From Oscillospiraceae bacterium (GTDB lineage: Bacteria; Bacillota; Clostridia; Oscillospirales; Ruminococcaceae), in NCBI GenBank assembly GCA_017408395.1, contig JAFQUQ010000060.1, forward strand, positions 1-41,779: 41,779 bases of DNA, given 5' to 3'. The translations under genes and the position numbers were made by a program. Positions 1,165-37,218 of this stretch are shown here, piece after piece. Position 1 is the stretch's first letter; every line of letters begins with the position of its first letter. A model generated the notes under the pieces. The model was given only the letters and a program-made list of their open reading frames with translations. It made no database searches and had not been told where the DNA came from.

Positions 1165-1355
1165 TCGGGAGATACATAACCGAACGATTACGAAGAAGCT
1201 TTTATATGCAGGTTTATTTACCCCGATAATCCTGCTTAATATAAAAGAACCCTTACTTCGGAATATTTTACCCCGATATTCCGAAGACCCCCCAATAATC
1301 CTATATCATAATCTTGCCCTTGTCTTTACCCCGGACAAGGGCGCTTCTTTTTTTA
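1165..1355 (+). ncRNA. Candidate structured small RNA with three UUUACCCCG-loop hairpins
   Basis: Four hairpins in a row. The first is GTAATCG (1161-1167)/CGATTAC (1185-1191), whose 5' arm overlaps the predicted start. Then come three stems of unrelated sequence presenting the same loop: GCAGGTTTAT/ATAATCCTGC with loop TTACCCCG (1208-1235, one mismatch), CTTCGGAATAT/ATATTCCGAAG with loop TTTACCCCG (1256-1286), and GCCCTTGTC/GACAAGGGC with loop TTTACCCCG (1316-1342). The last doubles as a terminator. Stems differ while loops are kept, as expected if the loop is functional. It could be a free sRNA or a leader of the downstream carboxypeptidase. I know of no named RNA family with this pattern. 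Confidence 0.5.
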
Positions 1356-28588: not shown

Positions 28589-30511
28589 TTATTTTCTGTT
28601 TAATTTACTGCGTTCCTTCTCACGGAACATTCTCTCGTCGGCAATGGAAATAGGAACTTCAATGTTGCTCATTCCAATTGTCGTATCGTAGAAAACACCT
28701 AAACTTATACTGAGAGGATAATTTCTCTTTAATCTTATTGCGTCAGCTTCAAGGTGTGCGTGGATGGATTTTGTGAAGGTATCAATTTCCTCGGTGGAAT
28801 ACTCTCCCGTGGAAATTATGATGAATTCATCGCCGCCGATACGGAAACAGCGTTTGTCCTGTCCGCATACCGAACTGAATGCACGTGCTGCCGCTTTTAT
28901 GGCAATGTCACCTTCAAAATGTCCGAAGGTATCGTTTATGAATTTGAGTCCGTTGAGGTCGCCAAGTATTACCAGCATTTTCTTGTTGTTGTCGGCGGCT
29001 GAACGGAAAATTTCATCGGCATAAAGGTTGAAGCCGTTTCTGTTGTAAATGCCCGTCATACTGTCGATAACGGCACTTTCACGCATATGCCTGTACATAA
29101 GTTCAAGCTTTGTCTGGCGTCTTAAGCTTTCCAGAGAGCCGTTTACAAAGCGTATCCACATACGGTATACAGCGTCATAGGAGCGTATTTCCCTGCCGTA
29201 GCTTATGACTGAATAGCCGAAACAGCGGTCGTTGAAGTGAACGGGGGTGAAAAAGTATGTTGTGGGGAAATCACGGCGGTAGTTCAGTATGGGCTGCATT
29301 TCGGAAAGGGGGAAATAGCGGTCTGTATTTACTCTGTGATGTTCTATCACCTGACCGTGCTCGATTGCGAAAATCATCTTTTCAGTATAGCCTTCTTTAA
29401 GGTATTCGTTATCGGCCATATTTTCGCTTAAACCGTCCCAGTTTTCGCAAAGACACAGGGCGAAATTATCAAAAGTGCCTATCTGATAGGTAAACCAGTT
29501 GAGGGTTAGCAGGTAGCTGTGAAGGTCTGATTCGGAAAGGAGACTTTCCAGCATATTGTTGTTAACGGCGTGGAAATCCTTTGTAACGTCCGTATCACGC
29601 CATTTCTGGGTCAGGATATTCTGCTTTTCCGCAAGGCTCACGCCGCAGCCGCAGCTTTGTCCCACGCTTATTTCTATGCTTAAATCCTTTGATTGGGACA
29701 GGGATTTTCCGAGAAGCTTTGCGTTTATGTAATCAACTGCCTGTGCGCCCGTGTTCTGCGACGGGATAATGGCAGAGGTTATGCAGGGGTAGTAGTTTAT
29801 GCCCGCAGGAACTGAGTCGTAGCCTACTACAGCAACTTCCTCGGGGACTTTTACGCCTCTCTTTTTAAGCTCCTCGCAGATACCGATAGCGGTTGTGTCG
29901 GAAGCGCAGGCTATTGCCTGTGGGAGAGGTCTGCCCGTAGAAAGCATTTCGTTTACGACCCTTTCACCGCAGGAATACCAGAAATCACCGTAAAAAACAC
30001 GTTCCTTGTCGATAGCAAGCCCGTGTTCAACGAGAGCTTCGCAGTAGCCTTCGAGTCGTTTCTGTGAATGAGGGTGTTCCTTAAAGCCTGTTACAAAGGC
30101 AATATCTGTAAAATTATGCTCTTCGATAAGGTGCGACACAAGCTTTTTAATGGGCTTCACATCATCGGAGAAAATGCTGTGGAAGCCTTCAAGCTCAAGC
30201 TCAACCGAAACTGCAGGACCCTTGAATTTGTTTTTTATATCGGCAATAACTTTTTCAAGGCAGCCTTCAAGCTGCATTGTATCGGGTGCGATTATCAATG
30301 CGTCCAGCATACTGTAATTTATCATATTGTAAATGTTTTTTTCGCCTGACTGCCATTCGGGTGATGAGCCTTCCTTTATGAAGGAAGAAAAAACCAGAAC
30401 ATCGTAATCCAGTGCATAAGCACGGGTCTGTATGCCTTGGATGAATTTATTCTGATAATCTCCGTCTGCGAGCGAAAGAATAACACCTATTGTCTTTCTT
30501 GCTTTCTTCAC
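28589..30511 (-). CDS. Diguanylate cyclase with LacI-type periplasmic-binding-like sensor
   Basis: 640 residues from GTG at 30511, favoured because AGAGGTGAT lies at proper distance; the ATG at 30517 is only 2 bases from it. Residues about 8-285 are a LacI/PBP1-type sugar-sensor fold (KTIGVILSLADGDYQNKFIQGI at the start, ACASDTTAIGICEELKKRG and VAVVGYDSVPAGINYYP later) without a helix-turn-helix, signal peptide or membrane segment. A middle region of about 190 residues is unassigned, possibly GAF-like. The C-terminus is GGDEF: GDLNGLKFINDTFGHFEGD and RIGGDEF near residue 559. There is no RxxD inhibitory site five residues before GGDEF. Predicted cytosolic enzyme making c-di-GMP in response to a small ligand. 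Confidence 0.88.
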   Translation of the reverse strand: MKKARKTIGVILSLADGDYQNKFIQGIQTRAYALDYDVLVFSSFIKEGSSPEWQSGEKNIYNMINYSMLDALIIAPDTMQLEGCLEKVIADIKNKFKGPAVSVELELEGFHSIFSDDVKPIKKLVSHLIEEHNFTDIAFVTGFKEHPHSQKRLEGYCEALVEHGLAIDKERVFYGDFWYSCGERVVNEMLSTGRPLPQAIACASDTTAIGICEELKKRGVKVPEEVAVVGYDSVPAGINYYPCITSAIIPSQNTGAQAVDYINAKLLGKSLSQSKDLSIEISVGQSCGCGVSLAEKQNILTQKWRDTDVTKDFHAVNNNMLESLLSESDLHSYLLTLNWFTYQIGTFDNFALCLCENWDGLSENMADNEYLKEGYTEKMIFAIEHGQVIEHHRVNTDRYFPLSEMQPILNYRRDFPTTYFFTPVHFNDRCFGYSVISYGREIRSYDAVYRMWIRFVNGSLESLRRQTKLELMYRHMRESAVIDSMTGIYNRNGFNLYADEIFRSAADNNKKMLVILGDLNGLKFINDTFGHFEGDIAIKAAARAFSSVCGQDKRCFRIGGDEFIIISTGEYSTEEIDTFTKSIHAHLEADAIRLKRNYPLSISLGVFYDTTIGMSNIEVPISIADERMFREKERSKLNRK

Positions 30512-30575
30512 AAACATCACCTCTTAAAAACACTTTTATTTTATCTTAAAATATGCTATAATAAATAATGTAATA

Positions 30576-30604: not shown

Positions 30605-30681
30605 TATATTATTTTTAAATTTTTAACTGCAAAAATTGTGTAAAAAGCGGAGTATTACTTTTATTGGTTTTTCAGCACGAT

Positions 30682-30711
30682 TTCACAGATTTTACACATA
30701 AGAGGTATAAT
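30682..30711 (+). promoter_or_regulatory. Promoter of the HtrA gene
   Basis: TTCACA (30682-30687), 18 bases, TATAAT (30706-30711). The leader carries an AAGCTGT/ACAGCTT stem (about 30714-30742). Confidence 0.55.
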
Positions 30712-30776: not shown

Positions 30777-32114
30777 ATGTACGATTCTAATAATTATAAT
30801 TATTCCGAGGGAAGCTTTACACCTGTTGAGCCTGAGGAAAAGCCTTCAAAGAAAAGCGGCGGTGCAGGCAAGGCGATTGCGGCAATACTGGCTGTTGTCC
30901 TTATAGGCGGTGCTTCGGGTTACGGCGGAGCGTGCCTTGCGAATATGAACAATGAAACAGTTTCCGTTTCCGCTGACGGTACCGTTGCCGAAACACAGCG
31001 TCCCGTTGTTACGGCTTCCACCGAGCAGGCTTCATCTGCGGAAGCGCTTACCAATAAGCCAAAGCCTGTGGGAAGCGTGCTTACAACTGCCGAGGTAATA
31101 AACAAGGTAACACCTTCCGTTGTTCATATCACCTCTGAATTTGACGATATGAGTTCAGGTGCAACAGGCACAGGCATCGTTTTTACAGCTGACGGCTACA
31201 TTGTTACAAACGCTCACGTTATTTCGGCTGAACAGCAGATACGCACAAATAATAACGATACCTACCCAAGCTTCGGAAACGACCCCTTCAGCTTCTTTGA
31301 AAACTTCTATAATTTCGGCGGAGGCGGCAATTATGAGACCGTGGTTGTTGACGCTGAAAAGGTCACCGTTACAATGTCGGACGGCACCGAATACGAAGCA
31401 GAGGTTATCGGAAGCGACGCAAACACCGACCTTGCTGTACTTAAAATTGAGGCTGACAATCTCACGGCTGCTGAGATAGGCGACTCAAAGGCGCTGGTAA
31501 TGGGCGATACGGCTATTACCCTCGGCTATCCTCTGGGACTGGGACTTTCCGCTTCGGACGGTATCATTTCGGGTCTTGACAAGGAAATGTCCGTTGAGGT
31601 CGCAGGCGGAAGCGTTACAATGAATCTTCTCCAGACCGATGCTGCTATAAACTCAGGCAACTCAGGCGGTCCTCTTCTCAACAGCAGAGGTCAGGTCGTT
31701 GGCATAACCTCCTCAAAGCTTACAGGCTCAAGCATTGACGGCGTAGGCTTTGCAATTCCGATAACAGACGCTCTCCCTATCATAAACGAGCTTATGACTA
31801 CGGGCGAGGTAAAGAATACTATCCCTAAAATCGGTATCACGGGTATGGAGATCACCCAGTCGGTACAGCGTTACTACGGTCTGCCTATTGAAAGCGGCGT
31901 GTTCGTAGAATCCGTTGAACCCGGCTCCTGCGCTGAAAAGGCAGGCATTGCCGCAGGCGACGTTATCGTTGCCGCTGACGGCGAGGAGGTAACGGATATG
32001 GATACCCTTATCAAGCTTAAGAACAAGCACAAGGCAGGAGAAAAAATGATAATCACTCTTGCAAGAAGCAACGGAAATATTGATGTTGAGCTTATACTTG
32101 ACGTTGATGAATGA
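30777..32114 (+). CDS. HtrA/DegP-type serine protease with one PDZ domain
   Basis: 445 residues. A cytoplasmic N-terminal tail of about 30 residues, a membrane helix (about 32-52), a Thr/Ser-rich linker, then a trypsin-like domain with His147 (TNAHV), Asp218 (NTDLAVLK) and Ser296 (NSGNSGGPL), and one PDZ domain (about 350-440). This is the membrane-tethered HtrA layout of Firmicutes, active outside the membrane in quality control and in processing of secreted proteins. A Gly/Asn/Phe-rich insert (about 160-186) corresponds to the regulatory loop between the catalytic His and Asp. The ATG follows AAAGGAAC. Single-gene unit. Confidence 0.93.
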   Translation: MYDSNNYNYSEGSFTPVEPEEKPSKKSGGAGKAIAAILAVVLIGGASGYGGACLANMNNETVSVSADGTVAETQRPVVTASTEQASSAEALTNKPKPVGSVLTTAEVINKVTPSVVHITSEFDDMSSGATGTGIVFTADGYIVTNAHVISAEQQIRTNNNDTYPSFGNDPFSFFENFYNFGGGGNYETVVVDAEKVTVTMSDGTEYEAEVIGSDANTDLAVLKIEADNLTAAEIGDSKALVMGDTAITLGYPLGLGLSASDGIISGLDKEMSVEVAGGSVTMNLLQTDAAINSGNSGGPLLNSRGQVVGITSSKLTGSSIDGVGFAIPITDALPIINELMTTGEVKNTIPKIGITGMEITQSVQRYYGLPIESGVFVESVEPGSCAEKAGIAAGDVIVAADGEEVTDMDTLIKLKNKHKAGEKMIITLARSNGNIDVELILDVDE

Positions 32115-33090: not shown

Positions 33091-33206
33091 GTATTTAAAT
33101 ATCATTAACATAGGATAATTGCCTGTGTATTTATACTCATTGTATAATTCAACAAAAATATACTGACAAACTTGTGCAGACTTCTGTTTCAGATACCCAC
33201 TTGGAG

Positions 33207-33243
33207 AAGGAGGAGGCTCTGTTTAAGAGCAAATTCGGTTATG
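33207..33243 (+). promoter_or_regulatory. Hairpin-bridged ribosome binding site
   Basis: AAGGAGG (33207-33213) is 27 bases from the ATG at 33241. Between them GCTCT (33216-33220) pairs with AGAGC (33226-33230) over GTTTA, leaving a 10-base linker to the ATG. The geometry is the same as at 3241-3274. Confidence 0.5.
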
Positions 33244-36200
33244 ATCAATTTTGACGCCAAAAAAAGAATACTGAAAAAACTTTCGGCAGTTGCGGAGAAG
33301 AACGCTCTGCTTCTGCTGCCGTGCCTTATTGCGGCAGGCTGTGTAAAGCTGTTTTATTTTATTGTCTGCAACATTGACATTGCCCTTTCGGACAGCAACG
33401 GCAACTTCCTGGGCATAAAATCCAGCAGAAAGGAAGCGGCTCCGAAGCCTAAGAAGCAGGACGAGATCGTTTATTCAAGACGTCCCCTCAGGTTCAGATT
33501 TGTTTCTGCGGTGCTCTCCTTTGCATTTGCAATGATGATAGTGCCTGCGGCGGTGCTTACAACTGCTTTTGCGGCGTTTGACCCAAATCAGTACAAGCTT
33601 GAAACCGAGTATGATTTTGATCCGCCAAGATACTATGAAGAAAGACTTAATCATATCGAAGCGCCTACACTTATTACAAATGCCTGCGTTCCCGGCGACA
33701 GCGCTTTCCAGGTTGCGTGGGAATGGGAATACCCTGTCAAGCTTACAGATGACCCGAGAGCATACTCCTTTGAAGTTTACTACACCTCAGGTACCGACAG
33801 TAAGCAGCTTGCAGGCAATGTAAAGGCTGTAAACACCCAGAGCCAGTATGAATATATTATAGAAGGTCTTGACCCTAAGCGTGAGTACACCTTTACTGTT
33901 GTTGCAAAGACATCCATACCTTATTATATCATTGAACAGATGTATGACAGCGACGACAATCCTTATGATGTATGGAAAAAGCTTGGCGCAAACGACTGGA
34001 AGACCGTAAAGGCCGAAAGCAGCGGCTATACTGCCGAGCCTTATGCATACCTTACTCCCGACCCTGTGTTTACTGTGCAGTATTACAGGACAGGCGAGCA
34101 GGCACCGGGCGATATTCCGGGAAATGATACCGAGCAGAGAGTTATCCTTACTCTTCTTAAGGAAACCGACGGTGCGACGGGTTATATTGTTTACAGAAAA
34201 AATCTTGACGACAAGAACCCTGTTGAACTGGAAATAGGTCAGTGGAAGGCTGAGGAGCTTGCGGCAGGCATCGAGCTTGGCAACGGTAGGATACAGAAGT
34301 CGGGCAAAGACCATACTCTTGCTCCTACTACTCTTTACAGCTACCGTGTTGTTGCATACAAGAATGCTTTCGACGAAACCTATGCAGGTGAATACAGCAA
34401 TGTGCTGGACAATTACTTCATTAAGAGTATAAGCTCAAAAAGCGGTACTATACATACAATGACTGCAAAAACCAGCGTTTCGGCAAAGAATGACGAAACC
34501 TCCATCACCGTTACCTGGACAAAGGTTGACAGAGCTACGGGTTATTATCTGTACCGTCTTACAGATGAAGAAAATACCAAGTATCTTAACGGCGAACTCA
34601 ATATCGAGGATTACCTCGTAAAGAAATACGACGACGGAAGCAAGACCCTGTCCTATGTGGATACGGCTGCTGACAACAAGGTGACATACTGGTATTATGT
34701 TGCGGCTTACCGTGATTATTCGGCAGGCGGCGGCTCCAGTGCAAGCGAAGAGATCGGTCAGCTTGCTCACACCTCACATTCGCTGAATACAACCATCAGC
34801 ACTCCTCAGAGCGTTGTTGCAACTCCTGACGACGGCAAGAATATCGTTACATGGAGCTGTCTTGACAAGAAGGTTGCGGGCTTTGAGATCAGAGTTACAA
34901 AGCTTACCGACAAGGAAGGCAACGACCTTGCTCTCAAGGACGCTGACGGCAATTTTATCCTCGATGAAAACGGCAACAAGACTTATGAGTATGTTGACGT
35001 ATTCTCAGTAGGTCCGACTCCTTTGAAATGGGAGCATACGGGTCTGCTTAACGGCGAAACATATCAGTACGAGATCCAGGCATTCAAGATCATCAACGAG
35101 GTAAAGGAGCCTGTCAGTGACTTCTCCAAGCCTCCTGCTGTTGCAACGGTAGGTCTTCCTTTCTACGCTCCGCAGGATATTACAGCTACCCCGGGTGACG
35201 GTCAGATTACTGTTGAATGGTCAAAGGTTGACAGAGCTACCGAGTATATCCTCCACATCTACAAAATCACAGGCAACTTTATTCAGGAAGTGGGCACAAA
35301 GACCCTTACAACCAACAAGTACGTTCACAAGAACCTTAAAAACGGCGATAAGTATATGTACTATGTTATCGCAAAGAAGGTCGTAAACAACGACCCTGTC
35401 TACACAGAGGAGTCCGAGCACGTTACTGCTGTTGTAGGTATTCCGCTTCTTGCTCCTACCGACCTTGAAGCAAAGGTAACAAACGAAACTGTTGAGCTCA
35501 GCTGGACAGCCGTAAAGGGCGCTGACGGTTACTATGTATATGTAATCGGCGACGGCAAGACTGAACAGTATGACGTTACAAAGAACAAGTTCTCACATCA
35601 GGCTAAATACGGCGTGAGATACACATATTACGTTATCCCTTACAAGAACATCATCACTTCCGACGGCGTTCAGAAGTGGACGGGTCCTTCCTCAGACACG
35701 ATCTCAGTCGTTGCGGGAATTCTCCTTGACGCTCCTACCAACCTTCAGGCTGAAATGAAGGACGGCGAGATCGAGCTTACGTGGGATAAGGTAACAGGCG
35801 CTGAAGGTTATATCGTTTATGTAATGGTAGACGGCGAAACTACAACATATACTGTTACAAAGAACAGCTTCCTTCATACAGGCGTAATCTCAGGCAAGGT
35901 TTATTCCTACTTTGTAAAGGCATTCAAGACCGTAAACGGCACAAAGATCTACAGCCTGCCGTCAAGTACGGTTTCCATCAAGGCAGGCGAGTATCTCGCA
36001 GCACCTAAGGATTTCACGGTTGAAACCGAAGACGCAAACGCTATCCTTTCCTGGACAAAGGTTGCAGGTGCAGAGGGTTATATCGTTTATGCTTACAAGA
36101 GCGGCGAGTCCTATGAATTCGACGTTTCCAAAACGGGCTACACACACACGGGCCTTACAAACGGCGATGTATGGCACTATTATGTAAAGGCATACAAGAC

Positions 36201-37218
36201 CGTAAACAACGGTCAGAGAGTTTACAGTGAGCCTACCACTACAAGAACTGTTACTATCGGTGCTTCACTCAACGCTCCCGTTGACCTTGTTGCTACCGCA
36301 GGCGACCGTCAGATAGACCTCAGCTGGACTGCTGTAAAGAACGCAGAGGGCTATGTTGTTTACATCTACAACGAGGGAAGTGAAAGCTTCGTTCCTCTTA
36401 CAGTTGTTTCAAAGCCCGGCTATTCTCACGTGGGACTTAAGAACGGCACAAAGTACACTTATATGGTTGCCGCTTTCAGAACAATAAACGGCGAGAGAGT
36501 CTACGGTGAATATTCAATGGCGGTTTCCGCTATTCCTACATCGGGAAGCGCTGCTGATCTGGATTTACTGCTCAACATCAAGGGTACTTCCCCTTACGGC
36601 ATTTCCCACAGCGAGCTTATTTCCGCAGCTGCAAACCACGAGGCATTTGACGAGTCCGTTGACATTTACTTCTCCGTAAACGAGGAGTCCACAAACGCTA
36701 TCAAGAATGTTCTCAAGCATTTTGCAAACGGTCTTAAGAGCTTTATCATCTATCCGTTTGACATAAGCACTTATTATGCTGATACGCTGGTTTCGGTTGA
36801 CCCTAACCCGGGCTACAGCATTACAATTACAATGCCTATCCCTGATAAGCTTGTAAAATACCGTGACTACATTACAGTTGTCCACATTGACACAGGCAGC
36901 TCAAATGTTATCACAGAGGAAAGCGACGCTGTTTATACAGACTCTGCTGACCTTGAAGTGCTTCCGAGTGCTGTTATTGAAATAAACGGCATATGGTGCA
37001 TCCAGTTTGTAACAACAAGCTGTTCACCGTTTGCGTTTGTAATCTACAAGGAAAATATGATGGACGTTTCCTCCGAGGCTGCCGCAGGTGCAGGCGGTTT
37101 TGCAGGCGCATTCAATACGGGTGTGTTCCTGTTTACTGCACTTCCTGACATTATGCCCCAGGAAAAGAAAACAAAGTTCGTTGTTTCCGCAAAGAAATAT
37201 TACAGAATTAAAAAGTAA
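33241..37218 (+). CDS. Large cell-surface fibronectin type III repeat protein
   Basis: 1325 residues from ATG 33241; the frame is open upstream to 33172 but that part is Arg-rich and non-coding in character. A first hydrophobic segment lies at about 22-48 and a second, signal-like one at about 88-111, so the mature part starts late. About nine FN3-type domains follow, the last five nearly regular at about 90 residues with openings such as APTDLEAKVTNETVELSWTA and core GAEGYIVYV. A distinct C-terminal domain of about 200 residues has VDIYFSVNEE and YSITITMPIP and ends in a weak hydrophobic stretch with a Lys-rich tail. There is no LPXTG or enzyme domain. Probably a scaffold or adhesin. Confidence 0.87.
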   Translation: MINFDAKKRILKKLSAVAEKNALLLLPCLIAAGCVKLFYFIVCNIDIALSDSNGNFLGIKSSRKEAAPKPKKQDEIVYSRRPLRFRFVSAVLSFAFAMMIVPAAVLTTAFAAFDPNQYKLETEYDFDPPRYYEERLNHIEAPTLITNACVPGDSAFQVAWEWEYPVKLTDDPRAYSFEVYYTSGTDSKQLAGNVKAVNTQSQYEYIIEGLDPKREYTFTVVAKTSIPYYIIEQMYDSDDNPYDVWKKLGANDWKTVKAESSGYTAEPYAYLTPDPVFTVQYYRTGEQAPGDIPGNDTEQRVILTLLKETDGATGYIVYRKNLDDKNPVELEIGQWKAEELAAGIELGNGRIQKSGKDHTLAPTTLYSYRVVAYKNAFDETYAGEYSNVLDNYFIKSISSKSGTIHTMTAKTSVSAKNDETSITVTWTKVDRATGYYLYRLTDEENTKYLNGELNIEDYLVKKYDDGSKTLSYVDTAADNKVTYWYYVAAYRDYSAGGGSSASEEIGQLAHTSHSLNTTISTPQSVVATPDDGKNIVTWSCLDKKVAGFEIRVTKLTDKEGNDLALKDADGNFILDENGNKTYEYVDVFSVGPTPLKWEHTGLLNGETYQYEIQAFKIINEVKEPVSDFSKPPAVATVGLPFYAPQDITATPGDGQITVEWSKVDRATEYILHIYKITGNFIQEVGTKTLTTNKYVHKNLKNGDKYMYYVIAKKVVNNDPVYTEESEHVTAVVGIPLLAPTDLEAKVTNETVELSWTAVKGADGYYVYVIGDGKTEQYDVTKNKFSHQAKYGVRYTYYVIPYKNIITSDGVQKWTGPSSDTISVVAGILLDAPTNLQAEMKDGEIELTWDKVTGAEGYIVYVMVDGETTTYTVTKNSFLHTGVISGKVYSYFVKAFKTVNGTKIYSLPSSTVSIKAGEYLAAPKDFTVETEDANAILSWTKVAGAEGYIVYAYKSGESYEFDVSKTGYTHTGLTNGDVWHYYVKAYKTVNNGQRVYSEPTTTRTVTIGASLNAPVDLVATAGDRQIDLSWTAVKNAEGYVVYIYNEGSESFVPLTVVSKPGYSHVGLKNGTKYTYMVAAFRTINGERVYGEYSMAVSAIPTSGSAADLDLLLNIKGTSPYGISHSELISAAANHEAFDESVDIYFSVNEESTNAIKNVLKHFANGLKSFIIYPFDISTYYADTLVSVDPNPGYSITITMPIPDKLVKYRDYITVVHIDTGSSNVITEESDAVYTDSADLEVLPSAVIEINGIWCIQFVTTSCSPFAFVIYKENMMDVSSEAAAGAGGFAGAFNTGVFLFTALPDIMPQEKKTKFVVSAKKYYRIKK

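Follow-up and report, generated by a model that had tools for sequence, protein, structure and literature searches.

In enterobacteria, envelope-stress factors are paired with small RNAs. The protein CsrA recognizes the motif GGA, which the sponge RNAs CsrB and RsmZ repeat in their hairpin loops, and a layout of 11-nt direct repeats is common to OmpR-family regulators. According to the available excerpt of PMC3091779, streptococcal CiaR is associated with an 11-nt direct repeat, TTTAAG-N5-TTTAAG, near the promoter, htrA is among the genes that it strongly regulates, and the csRNAs are short RNAs in which stem-loops surround an unpaired anti-Shine-Dalgarno region, usually with CAU. The canonical CssR box of Bacillus subtilis is given as TTTTCACA (excerpt of PMC6749698). 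In RsaE, FsrA, SprD, and RNAIII, a C-rich single-stranded motif binds the target mRNAs at the Shine-Dalgarno sequence (excerpt of PMC4132741).

This study analyzed a stretch of DNA of 41,779 bases, hereafter the window. Judged from the sequence, positions ~1163 to 1353 almost certainly represent a real and conserved stand-alone gene for a small regulatory RNA, with its own predicted promoter and terminator. The RNA, unnamed so far, occurs in gut Ruminococcus-like bacteria, where one envelope-stress two-component system seems to activate both it and the HtrA protease. The features of the locus are as follows.

1098-1138, + strand: array of 11-nt direct repeats of the TTTCA type, a CssR/CiaR-like response-regulator box (29-promoter consensus and pattern match).
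1131-1160, + strand: sigma-A type promoter, with the -35 element TTTACA at 1131-1136 overlapping the last repeat and the -10 element within 1151-1160 (pattern and conservation in homologs).
1161-1191, + strand: 5' hairpin GTAATCG/CGATTAC with GGGAGA in the loop (predicted fold; relatives pair similarly with other sequences).
1198-1247, + strand: outer helix around hairpin 1, pairing GCTTTTATAT at 1198-1207 with ATATAAAAG at 1239-1247 (predicted fold).
1208-1235, + strand: hairpin 1, with the loop UUUACCCCG at 1217-1225 (fold, loop count, and homologs).
1256-1286, + strand: hairpin 2, with the loop UUUACCCCG at 1267-1275; the best-conserved loop, on diverged stems.
1287-1314, + strand: single-stranded linker ACCCCCCAAUAAUCCUAUAUCAUAAUCU, near invariant among homologs of the RNA.
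1315-1353, + strand: intrinsic terminator, comprising a hairpin at 1315-1343 with the loop UUUACCCCG at 1325-1333 and a U tract.

A first-pass annotation had described this region as a possible new small RNA with three hairpins presenting a common loop, the last being a terminator, preceded by a candidate promoter and lacking a credible open reading frame. The window contains exactly three copies of TTTACCCCG, at 1217-1225, 1267-1275, and 1325-1333; 0.29 copies were expected, three copies were reached in 0 of 100 shuffles, and every copy forms the loop of a predicted hairpin. The predicted fold of 1150-1370 had an energy of -61.8 kcal/mol, compared with -32.5 kcal/mol (SD 3.6) in 200 shuffles (z = -8.2). 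These results revealed that the three hairpins are real, although the set has to be extended by the outer helix and the 5' hairpin. The terminator assignment was likewise upheld, with one terminator-like hairpin found, at 1315-1343, against 0.1 expected. The promoter-like pair at 1131/1160 is one of four found against 1.8 expected, and the pattern is therefore weak when taken alone, but the region is conserved in the homologs; transcription is predicted to start near 1163. A 90-codon frame (1094-1366) runs through the RNA stretch and is unlikely to be a gene because the hairpin lengths in the homologs vary by indels of differing size. Palindromes (GGGGACGCCCTC...GAGGGCGTCCCC-like and AACAGTCCACTGGACTGTT) lie in the upstream intergenic region at 1-260, possibly as a repeat element, and a GGGGACG...CGTCCCC palindrome was also observed before the response regulator gene RR1 in G264.

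The absence of a recognized family was also borne out. The window contained no match to Rfam 15 at the gathering score, and a search of 1100-1440 at E <= 5 returned SNORA63 (1.5) and RUF6-5 (2.1) as the top two entries. Twenty homolog loci matched just two SAM riboswitches, both outside the RNA. The RNA is not described in Rfam or in the literature searched, including the accessible portions of PMC12802291 and PMC8040213, and it may be contained as an unnamed prediction among the microbiome candidates of PMC8040213. SAM riboswitches were observed near the RNA locus in genus g19 (L205:2880-2982 and L206:1255-1357).

In a DNA search of 61 genomes, the genus of the RNA was represented by five genomes other than the RNA's own, four of which showed clear relatives; a partial relative was found in another genus. 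The fifth same-genus genome, G001, is 79% complete. A linker-pattern search reached further genera, and among the matches listed, 23 of 35 carried two or three mismatches, three of these (g114) being real. Of the 32 stretches yielded by the scan of named genomes, 31 belonged to assemblies with Oscillospiraceae, Ruminococcus, or Clostridia in the title; the remaining one, L067 (Saelkia), was a chance match and was removed. Excluding duplicates, L067, and the partial L006 left 29 distinct close homologs. L006 (G025) has a different upstream part and was therefore not placed among the 29 sequences, although it was counted in the distribution.

Hairpin 2 with ACCCC was present in all 29 close homologs, mostly with 11-12 bp and in a register that moves by 1-2 bases between genera. 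Its loop was TTACCCC (UUUACCCC in the RNA) in 27 sequences, and CCACCCC and CTACCCC occurred once each. Hairpin 1 with at least seven pairs was found in 23 of the 29, and the terminator loop contained ACCCC in 17, so the three-loop layout of the window holds in only part of the homologs. The terminator itself was kept in all 29 aligned sequences. The upstream GCTTTTAT was also found in 29 of 29, GCTTTTAT being the anchor with which these sequences were cut. In the close group, the search pattern itself dictates that the linker reads CCCC[A/C]AUAAUNCUAU; UCCCCAAUAAUCCCUAUAUCAU was present in most distant loci too, although the pattern did not select those loci.

Covariation was analyzed in two sets. 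The first comprised 16 of the 29 close sequences, aligned without structure: 99.1% of the cells were paired, and double changes occurred at 11 of 20 pairs (8 of 11 in hairpin 2 and 3 of 9 in the terminator). The covariation score was 0.456 against 0.194 in shuffled alignments and was reached by 0 of 500 shuffles, whereas the value for further pair types, one of five measures in all, was reached by 87 of 500; sliding the partners by 1-3 columns lowered pairing to 28-43%. The second set comprised 35 matches mostly from other genera, in an alignment fitted to the model and including one false match (L228). Here, 96.7% of the cells were paired and the score was 1.027 against 0.258 (0 of 500 shuffles); all 20 pairs showed double changes, a measure that 57 of 500 shuffles also reached. 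The compensatory stem changes and loop conservation in relatives support the new small RNA originally proposed, in which the loop is kept and the stems have diverged.

The distribution was determined with the covariance model R2, whose core comprises the ACCCC-loop hairpin, the linker CCCCAAUAAUCC(C)UAUAUCAU, and the terminator. Strict filters were used in both searches with this model. At E <= 0.01, R2 gave matches in 46 of the 396 genomes of the family, and the sequences of all 46 were inspected, six as core excerpts alone. The L228 match in G163 was judged false once its sequence was read, and 45 genomes in 12 genera were considered credible. Among 295 sampled genomes of the order, R2 matched only the RNA's own genome and one further genome of the same family, and none outside the family. 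A thirteenth genus, g101, matched weakly (17-20 bits) in three of three regions after the kinase gene, each with the box and an ACCCC hairpin; L329 of this genus also has a 5' hairpin, CCATATCATAATG, and a terminator. In three genomes (L209, L217, and L222), a tandem second copy lies ~200 nt from the first, with a box-like promoter but with the hairpin loop and the beginning of the linker degenerate (UCCCUAUAAUCCCUAUAUCAU).

The regulatory side of the locus was absent from the first reading. The 29 aligned RNA promoters contain up to four 11-nt direct repeats with the consensus nTTTCGnTTTnATTTCAGCnTnTTTTCACAnGATTTACACA, the last overlapping the -35 element, and as a box the consensus reads TTTTCACA-N3-TTTACACA. 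The last two repeats in the window are CTTTCACA-N3-TTTACACA at 1120-1138, and the array ends in TTTCACA-N4-TTTACACA. The RNA promoter carries, at or near its -35 element, the TTTTCACA box that characterizes the CssR regulon. The htrA gene of the window is preceded by such a box.

30680-30698, + strand: box ATTTCACAGATTTTACACA in the htrA promoter (pattern match and matrix).
30777-32114, + strand: htrA, encoding an HtrA/DegP-like trypsin-PDZ protease, putatively co-regulated.

The two-repeat box, allowing up to two mismatches, gave 116 matches in 14 genomes against 52 for the reversed control, and the gene recurring besides the small RNA in 30 fetched box loci was htrA (five loci, plus the window). 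Orthologs of htrA were found in 14 of 15 genomes, G392 having a paralog alone, and all 14, that of the window among them, had the box upstream, with scores of 1.6-25.2 for a 41-nt matrix. Thirteen exceeded all 6000 background windows (maximum 8.0), from which the small RNA promoters were masked; the score of the fourteenth (G263) was reached by 19 of 6000. With the same matrix, none of 16 fetched htrA paralog loci scored above -3.5. The two-repeat matrix placed four of the 14 scorable paralogs in close genera above the 5% level, and the box is therefore not exclusive to one htrA. By eye, the paralogs L141, L142, and L144 have seemingly real diverged boxes (TTTCAT-type, then TTATCACA or TATCACA, before the -10 element), and the regulon may contain two proteases, one being such a paralog.

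Nine further genera (17 genomes) yielded 36 htrA matches, 30 with loci and two without a start, which we divided by identity into better-matching and poorer-matching groups. The 5% background level was passed by 17 of 19 better-matching loci and by one of nine scorable poorer-matching paralogs. The box in these genera drifts to TTATCATA-N3-TTATCACA, as do the small RNA promoters of the same genera. The RNA and htrA promoters thus have 11-nt direct repeats in common, as would a small RNA in a two-component-controlled htrA regulon. In G004, the start of the htrA 5' UTR (L127), CTGTGATCGGGAGG, resembles the 5' end CCGTAGTCGGGAGG of the small RNA of the same genome (L004), as though one of the two genes had received its promoter and 5' hairpin from the other. 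Two further regions of the window were described by eye: a gene divergent from htrA (28589-30520, - strand), whose 643-aa product resembles a LacI-type sugar-binding sensor with a GGDEF domain behind it, and a region (33172-37218) encoding a 1348-aa protein with many fibronectin-III-like repeat units.

The response regulator RR1 was found, at 80-86% identity, in 14 of 15 genomes, the RNA's own among them and G205 the exception. Its gene is followed by that of the kinase HK1, in which HisKA and HATPase domains were recognized, together with a HAMP match below threshold. Scored with the two-repeat matrix, 9 of 14 RR1 promoters exceeded the 99% background level (G354, G392, G005, G391, G002, G004, G263, G000, and G003), and those of G264, G355, and G025 were at background; with the 41-nt matrix, only G354, G391, G003, and G263 stood out. 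In 20 of the 30 loci outside the close genera, the RNA core starts 49-371 nt (once 895 nt) past the HK1 stop codon on the same strand, an arrangement found in five genera (g120, g19, g28, g5, and g109). The kinase beside the RNA is 44-57% identical to HK1 and ~30% identical to HK2, the kinase of a second pair, and is the only match of its genome at E <= 1e-85. No HK1 lies beside the RNA in the other 10 loci (g27, g135, g142, and one g5 locus); in g1, g114, and g116, the RNA is located elsewhere and the box is kept.

At the same threshold, HK1 was present in 45 of 45 genomes with the small RNA and in 166 of 351 without it (p = 4e-14, without correction for kinship); at the level of genera, the counts were 12 of 12 and 57 of 114 (p = 5e-4). 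Among 20 regions after HK1 in model-negative genomes, 17 hold no such RNA, two g114 genomes included. Neither RR1 nor HK1 scores above the cut-off of any NCBIfam equivalog, and CssRS is therefore used as a functional label and not as demonstrated orthology. On this sequence evidence, we consider it very probable that the RNA belongs to the htrA/RR1-HK1 regulon. In 14 genomes, the second pair, RR2-HK2 (L179 and relatives), shares a contig with an htrA paralog that is at most 3 kb away. Eight of these paralogs were scored with the 41-nt matrix, none above -3.5, and RR2-HK2 is apparently a separate envelope circuit.

The complete chain, in which an envelope- or secretion-stress small RNA is co-regulated with htrA and represses translation by anti-Shine-Dalgarno pairing, appears likely to us, and its weakest link is the target step. 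Under envelope or secretion stress, HK1 would phosphorylate RR1, which would bind the 11-nt repeats and activate both htrA and the RNA. The single-stranded UUUACCCC loops and the C-rich linker would then be offered to G-rich ribosome-binding sites, such as GGGGUAAA or similar, probably with the help of Hfq at AAUAAU and the U tail. We take AAUAAU and the terminal U tract to be plausible Hfq contacts, and hfq was found in each of 16 genomes except the RNA's own, which is 71% complete. The translation of selected mRNAs would be blocked, plausibly those of secreted or membrane proteins, the misfolded forms of which HtrA would clear.

On balance, the RNA probably acts by anti-Shine-Dalgarno pairing, and its loops are able to pair with GGGGUAAA, a plausible ribosome-binding-site sequence. 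In 14 genomes, the pattern GGGGTAAA-N0-7-ATG was counted 158 times and the reversed control 97 times; the counts include some antisense sites of the RNA itself, and ordinary Shine-Dalgarno sites could explain so modest an excess. A usable start was present in 34 of the 90 loci read from these 158. By a crude home-made hydropathy rule, membrane or secreted proteins made up 18 of the 34 against 75 of 185 background genes, an enrichment that was not significant (p = 0.12), and the target class of the RNA is therefore a guess. Suggestive loop-complement targets, named by eye and without statistical support, included lipoproteins in G004, amtB in G003 and G005, galU in G003 and G004, and RR1 in G263. 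A search for the complement of the linker (17-nt pattern, at most two mismatches, 14 genomes) recovered the antisense of the RNA in every genome and seven further sites, against three with the reversed control, and no repeated full-length complement was seen.

The loops and the linker might instead form a binding site for a titrated protein or another RNA, as CsrB and RsmZ do for CsrA, the repeats raising its capacity. Such a site would also fit identical loops on unrelated stems together with a near-invariant linker of ~20 nt, and complementarity established no target. The CsrB-type sponge invoked in the first-pass annotation does not hold up well, however: the loops lack GGA, those of hairpin 2 being of the UUACCCC type in 29 of 29 homologs, and homologs differ in how many ACCCC hairpins they have. 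By the stem rule, the close homologs have three (14 of 29), two (12 of 29), or one (3 of 29), and genera g5, g19, g28, and g120 show a single ACCCC-loop hairpin by eye. We consider titration unlikely and continue to prefer an RNA of the htrA/RR1-HK1 regulon that pairs with ribosome-binding sites.

The regulator itself could be another one. If the box belonged to RR2-HK2 or to a PhoB/PhoP-type phosphate regulator of the OmpR family, the inducing stress would be misassigned. Repeats of 11 nt are common among OmpR-family regulators (for CiaR, see the excerpt of PMC3091779), the best NCBIfam score of RR1 was to PhoB, although below the cut-off, and the homolog L002 lies near a ppk1-like gene, named by eye. 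The Pho regulon, suggested by these repeats and this neighbor, was dropped as the first choice because the box of the RNA promoter was also found before htrA. As for RR2, its promoters scored -9.5 to -25 in 14 of 15 genomes and -0.2 in G004, and in 20 loci the kinase next to the RNA gene is HK1 and not HK2; the box, moreover, is found at RR1 in 9 of 14 genomes and tracks htrA. Control by a regulator other than RR1 therefore appears quite improbable, and we retain RR1-HK1 as the candidate regulator.

The hairpins might instead serve the downstream D-Ala-D-Ala carboxypeptidase gene (1444-2805) as its leader or attenuator, with no separate RNA; that gene starts ~90 nt past the terminator on the same strand. 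The neighboring genes, named by eye, nevertheless differ by genome (aspartokinase, sensor-kinase, CNNM-like transporter, and others), three g116 genomes having a ZapA-like neighbor in common, and they differ even between same-genus genomes, indicating that the unit is the RNA and not a leader. The 29 aligned homologs keep the terminator, and an extended -10-like TGGTATAAT (1395-1403, by eye) after it could serve the carboxypeptidase gene, making the leader a very remote alternative. The locus has the attributes of a trans-acting small RNA gene: a predicted promoter of its own, an intrinsic terminator, a conserved structure, and no single fixed neighbor. A chance or selfish hairpin cluster without function is contradicted by the compensatory changes, the conserved promoter, and the linkage across genera, and its probability is negligible.

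If the preferred reading is true, Ruminococcus-like gut bacteria gain an envelope-stress small RNA for which a candidate regulator, one co-regulated gene, and a search model are already at hand. The idea of a repeated pairing of htrA with a C-rich small RNA in Gram-positive bacteria, comparable to that of envelope-stress factors with small RNAs in enterobacteria, would then become testable. As a tentative and rather doubtful extension, the three-part envelope-stress module of a two-component system, htrA, and a C-rich small RNA may have arisen independently in streptococci, Listeria, and Oscillospiraceae, or may be an ancient Firmicutes module with its RNA rewritten beyond recognition; the UUUACCCC loops would act on mRNAs and the linker on a protein (for example, Hfq) or a second RNA.

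The likeness to C-rich-loop small RNAs of low-GC Gram-positive bacteria noted at the outset fits these findings. The layout resembles that of the streptococcal csRNAs (CiaRH) and of listerial LhrC, although the present RNA belongs to neither group by box, motif, or Rfam. As with the csRNAs, a response regulator has an 11-nt repeat near the promoter and htrA in its regulon, and the conserved csRNA sequence [A/C]UCCUAAA[A/C] (excerpt of PMC3091779) resembles AAUCCUAUAU of the present RNA by eye. Hosts of the present RNA carry hfq, which streptococci apparently lack (same excerpt). Unlike the csRNAs, the present RNA has a box of TTTCACA instead of TTTAAG, with the consensus TTTTCACA-N3-TTTACACA in place of TTTAAG-N5-TTTAAG, has ACCCC in its hairpin loops, and matches no Rfam model. 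LhrC1-5 of Listeria monocytogenes (LisRK) have the motif UCCC and exist in five copies, whereas the motif here is UUUACCCC; the LisR box consensus was not known in the LhrC paper. The Rfam library holds an LhrC model, and the window region matches no such model at E <= 5. RsaE, FsrA, SprD, and RNAIII are under other regulators. The present RNA shares with them a C-rich single-stranded motif (excerpt of PMC4132741), the sequence comparison being the Rfam search alone. A literature search, which returned mainly unrelated papers, found no small RNA in the CssRS regulon of B. subtilis. That regulon resembles the present system in its TTTTCACA box, in htrA as a target, and in the autoregulation of cssRS (excerpt of PMC6749698).
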